Source: Dermatophagoides farinae (taxonomy: Eukaryota > Arthropoda > Arachnida > Sarcoptiformes > Pyroglyphidae). Taken from it: a DNA stretch of 64,000 nucleotides. The notes beneath the pieces are model-generated. The model made no database searches. It saw only the letters and a program-made list of their open reading frames with translations, and had not been told where the DNA came from. The stretch lies in contig NC_134686.1 in the NCBI RefSeq assembly GCF_024713945.1, positions 2,380,001 through 2,444,000 of the forward strand, read 5' to 3'. The position numbers and the translations under genes are program-made. Within the stretch, counting starts at the first letter, position 1, and each line of letters begins with the position of its first letter. Below are positions 10,600-12,975 of the stretch, piece after piece.

Positions 10600-12975
10600 T
10601 TCAAAAATTTTTGGAAAAAGCAAAAGAAGATTTTGAAAGAAAATGGAACCAACAGGGTTCAAATACGGCATCATTAGAGGATTATGAACGTATAAAAACA
10701 TTGGGCACCGGTTCATTTGGCCGTGTAATGCTTGTACAACGAAAATCTGGTCCAGATGCTGGGAAACATTTTGCCATGAAAATTCTTGATAAACAAAAAG
10801 TTTGTTTTGTTTGAAAAAAAAATTTTTTATCATTTCTCTAAATTGTTTTCTTCTTCTTATTTTTTTTCATTAATCACAGGTGGTCAGATTGAAACAAGTG
10901 GAACATACATTGAATGAGAAAAAAATATTACAAGCTGTAGATTTTCCATTCTTAGTACATCTTGATGCTTCATTCAAGGTAAGTGGGTTCAATATTTGTG
11001 GAAACAAACAACGTATGGATTGAATCGTTTTGGACATACACACACACACACACATAACCATTATATAACAACAACAAGTTCCATTTTTGATCCAAACCAT
11101 ATAACATAATGATGATGATAACAATTAAATTTAGGATGGAGGCCATCTATATATGGTCATGGATTTCATTCAAGGTGGTGAATTATTCACGAAAATTCGT
11201 TTATTTAAAAGATTTAGGTATAATTTTTTATTATTATTCCTTTCTTTTTTTCCAAGTGTCAAGAAAATATTCTGTTTGTAATAATCCATTGTCATCATGT
11301 CTTGTGTTAAATATATATGTGTATGTCTTTGTGTCCATTACAAACTTTCAGTTTGTTTTTGTTTTGATTCATGAAGAGCTTACAACTACTAGCAGCAGCT
11401 AGATAGGGAAAAAAACACAGTTAAACAACAGTCCAAACGATAAACGATTTTTTTTGCAGGATTGAATTTGTCTTTTCTTTTTCACTCTTTTCAAATAATA
11501 TTTCTGTGTTTTTTTTTGTGTTTTTTTTCCTTCATCCAAAACCACATTAGGACAATTCATATTTATACATGGTCTTGGAATATGTACCCGGTGGTGAAAT
11601 GTTTTCCCATCTAAGAAAGACGGGAAGATTTAGGTAAATTTTTTTTTTTACTTTTCTCCTAATTTCGTTTGTTAATAGTCATGATGATGATGATCATGAA
11701 AAATGGCAACATCATCAATAAATGAAAAATAACATTGACTAACCAACCACCCATTAAAATAATGATGATGATGATCAAACTTTAATTCAGTCATTCTCAA
11801 CCATTGTGCCGCGGCACTAAAATCGTTAACAAATCAATAGCAACAAAAAAAGGTTGAAAATGACTGCTTTAATTGTTAGCTGTTTTTTTTTTTTTTTGCT
11901 TTAAAATTCATTTTTGCATGTATGTTTTGCTTGTTTTTGTTGTTGTTCACATGTTGTTCATCTTTCTCATCAGATGTTTTTTTGTTTTGTTTTGTTTTGT
12001 TTTTGAACAAAAAATTTTACTCATTAAAAATTGTTTTTTTTATTATAGCGAACAAATGGCTCGATTTTATGCCGCACAGATAGTGTTAGCATTTGAATAT
12101 CTTCATTATCTCGATCTCATATATCGTGATTTAAAACCAGAAAATCTATTAATCGATTCACAAGGTTATATTAAGGTATGTGTAATGGAAAAAACTGGCC
12201 ATTTTTTATTGAAAACAAAATTTTCTCGTTTGTAGGTCACAGATTTTGGTTTCGCCAAACGAGTCAAAGGTCGTACATGGACGTTATGTGGTACGCCCGA
12301 ATATTTAGCACCAGAAATTATTCTAAGCAAAGTAAGATATACCATACGATTCAAAAGCGATGATTTTTTTTCTAATTTTTTTTCCCTTTTTACACATATA
12401 TAGGGTTATAACAAAGCAGTCGGTATGTTTTTTTTTGTTTGTGTTGTGTTATATTTGTTTATTTTTCATTTTTAATCCTTTGTTTTGTTTTGTTTTTGTT
12501 TTGTTTTTTTTTATATATTCAGATTGGTGGGCACTTGGCGTATTAATCTATGAAATGGCCGCCGGTTATCCACCATTCTATGCTGATCAACCGATACAAA
12601 TTTATGAAAAAATTGTGAGCGGAAAAGTACGATTTCCATCACATTTTAGTGTTGAATTGAAAGAATTGTTAAGAAATTTATTGCAAGTTGATCTTACAAA
12701 ACGATACGGAAATTTGAAAAATGGTGTCAATGATATTAAAAATCATCGTTGGTTTTCATCCACAGAATGGATTGCCATATACCAGAAAAAGGTTTTTGTC
12801 CAGAATCTATTTTTTTTTGGTTCTAATTTCCATTGTTTTTTTTTATCAGGTTGAAGCACCATTTTTACCTAAATGTAAAGGACCAGGCGATACAAGTAAT
12901 TTTGATGATTATGAAGAAGAAGCATTACGAATATCTAGTACAGAAAAATGTGCGAAAGAATTTGCCGATTTTTAG
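10600..12975 (+). CDS. cAMP-dependent protein kinase catalytic subunit (PKA-C), N-terminal exon unresolved
   Basis: Coding exons: 10600-10799, 10880-10978, then 11135-11217 or 11551-11633 (alternatives), 12049-12175, 12236-12331, 12404-12422 (only 19 nt), 12523-12791 and 12850-12975 (TAG). Joined through either alternative exon they give about 338 residues starting [12 protein letters not shown], so only the short N-terminal exon of this roughly 350-residue family is missing. Visible are the glycine loop GTGSFGRVM, the lysine in FAMKILD, the catalytic [14 protein letters not shown], the activation-loop threonine in [16 protein letters not shown], and the C-tail FDDYEEE with terminal EFADF. 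The protein is the serine/threonine kinase released from regulatory subunits by cAMP. The C-terminus [14 protein letters not shown] resembles insect PKA-C1. Donors after exons 10799 and 12791 are T-rich (GTTTGT, GTTTTT), but the joins are fixed by the protein. Confidence 0.95.
11135..11217 (+). other. alternative PKA hinge exon 4a
   Basis: It encodes [18 protein letters not shown] followed by TKIRLFKRF and ends in phase 2 before GTATAA. The acceptor is ttaaatttag. It is 83 nt, exactly as long as exon 4b, with the same start and end phases. It keeps the GGE glutamate and the next phenylalanine. It changes the hinge Glu-Tyr-Val to Asp-Phe-Ile and alters the helix D residues. Using both exons would shift the frame. 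Confidence 0.8.
11551..11633 (+). other. canonical PKA hinge exon 4b
   Basis: It encodes [18 protein letters not shown] then SHLRKTGRF, which matches the canonical arthropod PKA hinge almost residue for residue. Acceptor cacattag, donor GTAAAT, length 83 nt, phase 0 to 2. It joins the exon at 12049 to complete the serine of [13 protein letters not shown]. Confidence 0.93.
11788..11866. mobile_element. 79-bp hAT-type MITE with 8-bp target duplication
   Basis: Terminal inverted repeats CAGTCATTCTCAACC and its partner CAGTCATTTTCAACC match at 14 of 15 positions. They are flanked by a perfect 8-bp direct repeat, ctttaatt (11780-11787 and 11867-11874). Inside lies the 12-bp palindrome GTGCCGCGGCAC. 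TIRs starting CAG with an 8-bp duplication are typical of hAT transposons. The element has no coding capacity and sits in the intron between the 4b exon and the exon at 12049. Confidence 0.88.

Follow-up and report, generated by a model that had tools for sequence, protein, structure and literature searches.

A candidate mutually exclusive pair of hinge exons in the PKA catalytic subunit gene of the mite Dermatophagoides farinae

The stretch of DNA analysed here, referred to as the window, spans 64,000 nucleotides of the Dermatophagoides farinae genome (contig NC_134686.1, positions 2,380,001 to 2,444,000) and carries on its forward strand the kinase core of a PKA catalytic subunit (PKA-C) gene, from position 10600 to a stop codon ending at 12975. 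In our gene model, seven constitutive exons and a pair of cassettes make up this core, and all introns are of the GT-AG type. The first exon of the core (10600-10799; 200 nt), also recovered by tblastn, includes the glycine loop and extends to DKQK, and the next (10880-10978; 99 nt) immediately precedes the two cassettes, here called 5a (11135-11217) and 5b (11551-11633). Downstream of the pair lie the exons with the catalytic loop YRDLKPEN (12049-12175; 127 nt) and with DFG, the activation loop and APE (12236-12331; 96 nt), a short exon for GYNKAV (12404-12422; 19 nt), an exon running from DWWALGV to IYQKK (12523-12791; 269 nt), and the last one, with the FDDY tail and the stop (12850-12975). 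With its AGC kinase domain and FDDY tail, the gene is closest to PKA-C and is a PKA-C1 gene. The Pfam Pkinase model scores 238.7 bits for the form with 5b and 230.1 bits for the form with 5a, and, when the latter was searched against the PDB, among the best 60 of 2724 matches the top 56 were PKA catalytic chains, some of them fusions (E 1.6e-187 to 6.1e-183), and rows 57-60 were one yeast PKA and three PKG.

A scan of window positions 1-10600 for ATGGGNAAY gave no match; an MGN-type first exon, MGNAPAKKGDTTEN, with a phase-compatible GT donor was found at C10:2376296, which lies 3.7 kb before the window begins and 14.3 kb upstream of 10600, and we infer that it is spliced to the exon at 10600. 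Among the neighbours of the gene, Pfam places between 14817 and 28247 a 2OG-Fe(II) oxygenase, an actin family member, SCP2, a DFP flavoprotein domain, a mitochondrial carrier, an ankyrin-BTB protein and Mediator subunit 16. Further away, a homeobox gene lies on the reverse strand (51553-53329), its homeodomain split across two reading frames, presumably by an intron; it is labial/Hox1-like by eye, and the Pfam Homeodomain model scores above cut-off in one piece and just below it in the other.

The two cassettes are both 83 nt long, are flanked by AG and GT, are entered in phase 0 and left after the second base of a codon, and encode the same 27-residue segment of the kinase. The preliminary description had already presented them as consecutive exons of equal length and phase covering one kinase segment, and its six junctions (10978, 11135, 11217, 11551, 11633 and 12049) are all correct. 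The intron between them (11218-11550; 333 nt) is the second longest of the 8 introns inside the core, the others measuring 58-415 nt. With either cassette alone the core reads as 339 residues, open to the stop ending at 12975; when both are included, however, the frame shifts and a stop is reached at codon 149, inside 5b, and when neither is, the stop comes at codon 116. Because both-in and both-out messages stop early, the choice between 5a and 5b would, by frame arithmetic, have to be exclusive. That joint inclusion would end within the second copy, and that the frame would thus force an exclusive choice between phase-matched hinge exons, had been proposed from the letters of the window, and the frame tests on the gene model support both points.

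The resemblance between 5a and 5b is limited to 46 of 83 nucleotides and 12 of 27 residues, and is unevenly distributed over the codon, with 14/28 first, 21/28 second and 11/27 third positions alike. By NG86, dN is 0.53 and dS could not be estimated, which, together with the few third positions still alike, points to a copy that is old yet intact. The pair is real and beyond chance: across both strands of the window, 192 segments have the form AG-83nt-GT and 59 of these are open in frame, among which 5a matches 5b at 12 of 27 residues and the runner-up at 5 of 27. A tblastn search of the window and of loci of the same genome with 5a recovers 5b at E 1.15e-5, and tblastn detected no third copy of the cassette in the window. 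Nor were duplicates of other PKA-C exons found in the 40 kb made up of 20 kb upstream and window positions 1-20000, where, beyond the gene itself, the only matches had E >0.7, and Rfam gave no match over positions 8000-14500. Mutually exclusive exons produced by tandem duplication form a class that is well documented (PMC3228551, PMC9741552), and the mite pair shows the three features used for their prediction, namely similar length, compatible splice sites and frame, and homologous peptides (PMC3228551). In that same study of the Drosophila X chromosome, all three features were also present in 90 of 16180 other exons that served as a control, and 26 of 65 exons predicted to be internal and exclusive were annotated so at that time (PMC3228551).

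In vertebrate numbering, as we take it, the hinge exon represented by the mite pair is exon 5, and the exon 4 of the preliminary description is better given up; its human counterpart is presumably 83 nt long as well. Set against the vertebrate layout as we assume it to be, the mite gene splits one exon by a 100-nt intron (19 nt and the rest; 12404-12791), and neighbouring exons look fused in its 200-nt (10600-10799) and 269-nt exons. The number and lengths of PKA-C exons and the phases of the introns are described as conserved among chordates, sea urchin, a hemichordate and Daphnia, and the coding part of insect PKA-C as lying within one exon (PMC3625193). The mite gene seems to keep the old exon at 5b, with the extra exon adjoining it.

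By sequence, 5a differs from 5b at 15 of 27 positions, over the hinge and helix D. In PKA residue numbering, 5a carries Asp121, Phe122, Ile123, Gln124, Leu128, Thr130, Lys131, Ile132, Leu134, Phe135 and Lys136 as its specific residues, and keeps Gly125, Gly126, Glu127, Phe129, Arg133, Arg137 and Phe138. Asp-Phe-Ile thus stands in place of the hinge Glu-Tyr-Val, and translation bears out what had been read at first sight, namely that the first exon makes this swap and alters helix D, and that it keeps GGE and the next Phe. To the mammalian PKA segment, 5a is identical at 13 of 27 residues and 5b at 23 of 27; calling the second copy canonical is therefore justified by its overall identity, with the exception of position 120, where 5b (11551-11633) has Leu and both 5a and mammalian PKA have Met, so that at this single position it is 5a that has the more usual residue.

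Residues 121 and 123 are reported to bind adenine-site ligands as Glu121 and Val123 through their main chain, and Tyr122, Val123 and Met120 to form part of the hydrophobic surround of one inhibitor (PMC13167742), while the P-3 arginine is a contact of Glu127 and Phe129, and the P-5 backbone of some substrates a contact of Arg133 (PMC8970585, PMC11728977). Since the hinge contacts at 121 and 123 are made by the main chain, Asp-Phe-Ile would be expected to affect polar contacts less than the hydrophobic lining, and, with Glu127, Phe129 and Arg133 kept, recognition of PKA-type substrates should persist in the 5a form. The two forms would most likely differ in nucleotide or inhibitor fit, in hinge motion and on the helix D surface. 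The earlier suggestion that the changed residues line both the adenine pocket and the substrate groove therefore stands in part: the hydrophobic lining of the pocket is altered even though its contacts at 121 and 123 are main-chain ones, and the substrate part is weakened because the three substrate-contacting residues are unchanged.

The signals around the two exons are unequal in strength. Over positions -25 to -4, the acceptor of 5a (region 11110-11134) has a pyrimidine fraction of 0.41 and a longest pyrimidine run of 2, that is, it is without a polypyrimidine tract, against fractions of 0.50-0.82 and runs of 7-16 in the other eight acceptors of the gene, and its donor, which agrees with the consensus at 5 of 9 positions, has the poorest match among eight donors. 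With the weakest splice sites in the gene at 5a, the arrangement suggests that 5b may be the default exon and 5a the regulated one; alternatively, the weak acceptor could mean that 5a is used rarely or not at all. Competing RNA structures were considered as a control of the choice and make a weak candidate. The longest exact pairings are 12 nt within introns and 11 nt between them, mostly of simple or A/T-rich sequence, and donor accessibility, at 0.26 for both 5a and 5b, is not distinctive among the eight donors (0.22-0.90). Two donor-holding stretches do fold better than most of their shuffles (z -2.88 and -2.58), and two acceptor stretches fold poorly against theirs (z 1.46 and 0.19).

The weak acceptor and donor, and the distance of 5a from the mammalian segment when compared with 5b, are what might be seen in a decaying duplicate that has kept its splice sites by accident and is unused. 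We consider this unlikely, although of the alternatives it is the one that fares best, as frame, length, splice dinucleotides and phase are all intact in spite of a synonymous distance that could not be estimated. Neutral decay was simulated from 5b with the base composition of the introns until 37 differences had accumulated, and the products were scored against a kinase profile for which other kinases of this genome supplied 14 hinge segments, with both cassettes left out. Of 20000 runs, a fraction of 0.1464 kept an open frame, 10 arrived at an identity of 12/27, and none reached either the BLOSUM or the profile score of 5a, the latter being 64.2 against a mean of 12.0 under neutral decay. 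When the number of replacements was fixed at 15, which makes branch length irrelevant to the simulation, none of 5000 runs reached the profile score of 5a (mean 30.4) and 40 of 5000 reached its BLOSUM score; with the segment of contig C13 removed from the profile, the count was 0 of 3000. With 20 nucleotide changes instead placed on 5a, the BLOSUM score was attained in 781 of 10000 neutral runs; with 28 changes, in 11 of 10000. The simulations show that 5a, as judged from its sequence, has evolved under coding constraint and has not been drifting; they average over its entire history, and a recent loss after long use would escape them.

It is also possible, though about equally improbable, that the 5a isoform is made and is catalytically altered, or is an inactive decoy that occupies regulatory subunits. 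Such an outcome would be in keeping with a hinge and helix D that differ from those of 5b at 15 of 27 positions; however, 13 of the 15 replacements score positive in the profile that represents the genome's other kinases, with Gly113 and Leu134 as the exceptions, and we know of no catalytic residue that is lost in 5a. A precedent exists in mammals, where C-beta variants without exon 4 are reported to be inactive (PMC6143667) or to bind R without cAMP control (PMC3625193). As for the partners of the enzyme, the RIIa docking domain is found at two loci in the mite genome, so that holoenzyme partners probably exist.

The source of 5a is less obvious from its letters than from its position. Within the 27 residues, 5a shares 12 with 5b, but 12 as well with each of three further kinases encoded in the genome and 11 with several, and at the DNA level it shares 44 of 81 nucleotides with 5b and up to 50 of 81 with another kinase. 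When 5a was used as a query with its flanks, 5b was outscored by six loci on other contigs, but introns split those flanks off at 5b. Among solved kinases other than PKA, the nearest to the 5a segment with flanks is RSK (best 60 of 353 matches), and a mite segment read as RSK by eye, LVLDYLRGGDLFTRL, shares with 5a the Asp and the Leu-Phe-Thr. In sequence terms 5a is thus a hinge of the AGC type, and its distance from ordinary PKA is about that of other AGC kinases. This similarity, no higher to 5b than to several other kinases, is what would be seen if 5a had belonged to a different AGC kinase, as its hinge exon, before moving into the intron, a doubtful origin that we rate below the two alternatives above: 5a adjoins 5b with exactly its length and phase, no segment in the genome sample has a BLOSUM score to 5a above the 74 of 5b, which the C13 segment equals, and most of the other kinase matches in tblastn read unbroken across one or both borders of the cassette, so that most other kinases offer no exon having both. 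We infer instead that 5a arose from 5b by tandem duplication, for which place, length and phase are the basis; in sequence, some other kinases of the genome are at least as close to 5a as 5b is.

The genome search behind these comparisons covered a 62.4-Mb assembly of 22 contigs, with the window on contig 10, and reported 131 matches, with 119 of 270 candidates scored; no second PKA-C1-like locus was noticed among them, and a divergent relative of PKA-C could escape a search of this scope. The other matches above 50% identity that were inspected by eye had hinge letters like those of PKG, Akt and similar types. According to PMC3625193, the invertebrates examined have one homolog of C-alpha/C-beta each. 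Two loci of the assembly encode stretches that agree at 119/120 and 192/193 residues with the mite allergens of solved structure Der f 2 and Der f 7, and the Der p forms score lower, in keeping with D. farinae or a very near relative as the source. A separate observation concerns a PKA-like kinase at 51000-54500 of the 90-kb contig C13 of assembly G000 (locus L053), with 38-45% identity to pieces of the mite PKA-C; by eye it is unlike the mite's own kinases and is possibly from another organism, and the GC content of its contig, 0.288, is not set apart from that of mite contigs (0.283-0.286). Scans for related loci gave no match in viral contigs and, in prokaryote contigs, one unrelated distant kinase from a bacterial metagenome-assembled genome, matching outside the cassette.

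The least probable of the alternatives, a poison exon that would tune the level of PKA-C by nonsense-mediated decay after joint inclusion with 5b, draws on the stop at codon 149 upstream of further junctions, but gives no reason to keep a kinase-hinge sequence, whereas amino acid constraint and equal phase and length fit a protein-coding role, so that such an effect could at best be a secondary use of 5a.

On balance, and with good but not full confidence, we read the locus as one in which a duplicate of the PKA-C hinge exon has been kept under coding constraint and has become half of a mutually exclusive coding pair, with 5b as the default exon, 5a as the regulated one and an active variant kinase as the product; one gene would then probably make two forms of PKA-C. 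Under this duplication reading, 5b, with its good polypyrimidine tract, would be used by default, and 5a, with no such tract and the poorest donor, would be switched in by tissue- or stage-specific splicing activators. The 333-nt spacing and the GT-AG borders of both exons leave no need for steric hindrance or spliceosome incompatibility; exclusivity would be enforced by frame logic, wrong combinations of 5a and 5b being removed by nonsense-mediated decay. The 5a isoform is predicted to be an active kinase, with Gly-Gly-Glu, Phe129, Arg133 and the rest of the core unchanged, whose reshaped hinge pocket and helix D surface may alter nucleotide or inhibitor affinity, domain closure or the partners that bind the helix D face. 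A more ambitious version, which we put forward tentatively and think on the whole unlikely, is that the only PKA-C1-like gene found yields in effect a second PKA, released by cAMP, with an RSK-like hinge and helix D as far from PKA as those of other AGC kinases, a nucleotide or inhibitor profile and partners of its own, and tissue-specific splicing.

Alternative splicing of an invertebrate PKA-C gene would have a parallel in Aplysia, where two PKA-C subunits are reportedly generated by alternative RNA splicing (Beushausen et al. 1988, Neuron). The Aplysia cassettes reportedly cover roughly residues 142-183, the next exon; if so, the mite pair would be an independent event. In C. elegans one main PKA-C gene (kin-1) is diversified by splicing, as would be the case in the mite, but kin-1 varies at its N and C termini and the mite gene would vary inside the kinase core (PMC9692727, PMC3771449). 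Splice variation inside the core would be shared with human C-beta, where, however, exon 4 is skipped and not exchanged for a homologous exon (PMC3625193, PMC6143667). Within the class of mutually exclusive tandem exons, into which the mite pair would fall, exclusion here would follow from frame logic, and no PKA-C example appears in the portions of PMC3228551 and PMC9741552 drawn on here. The tandem exons of FYN, which span the linker between SH2 and kinase domains and the N-terminal portion of the kinase that binds ATP, likewise touch the ATP site (PMC9741552), although FYN is a tyrosine kinase and a different segment is involved, the mite pair encoding hinge and helix D in an AGC kinase. 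Among the open-licence papers listed, we saw none that describes a pair of hinge exons in PKA-C from mites or other chelicerates.

Among protein kinases PKA-C serves as the reference, and the conservation of its core in animals is described as exceptional (PMC3625193). In the parts of the literature cited here, the splice forms described for PKA-C, including those of mammals, vary the ends of the protein or skip an exon, with no exchange of the hinge among them. If our reading is true, the mite would offer a natural experiment in which selection has swapped hinge and helix D and left the rest of the enzyme the same, with nucleotide affinity, domain closure and the choice of partners as its readouts; it would also add another route by which cAMP signalling may be diversified from one gene.
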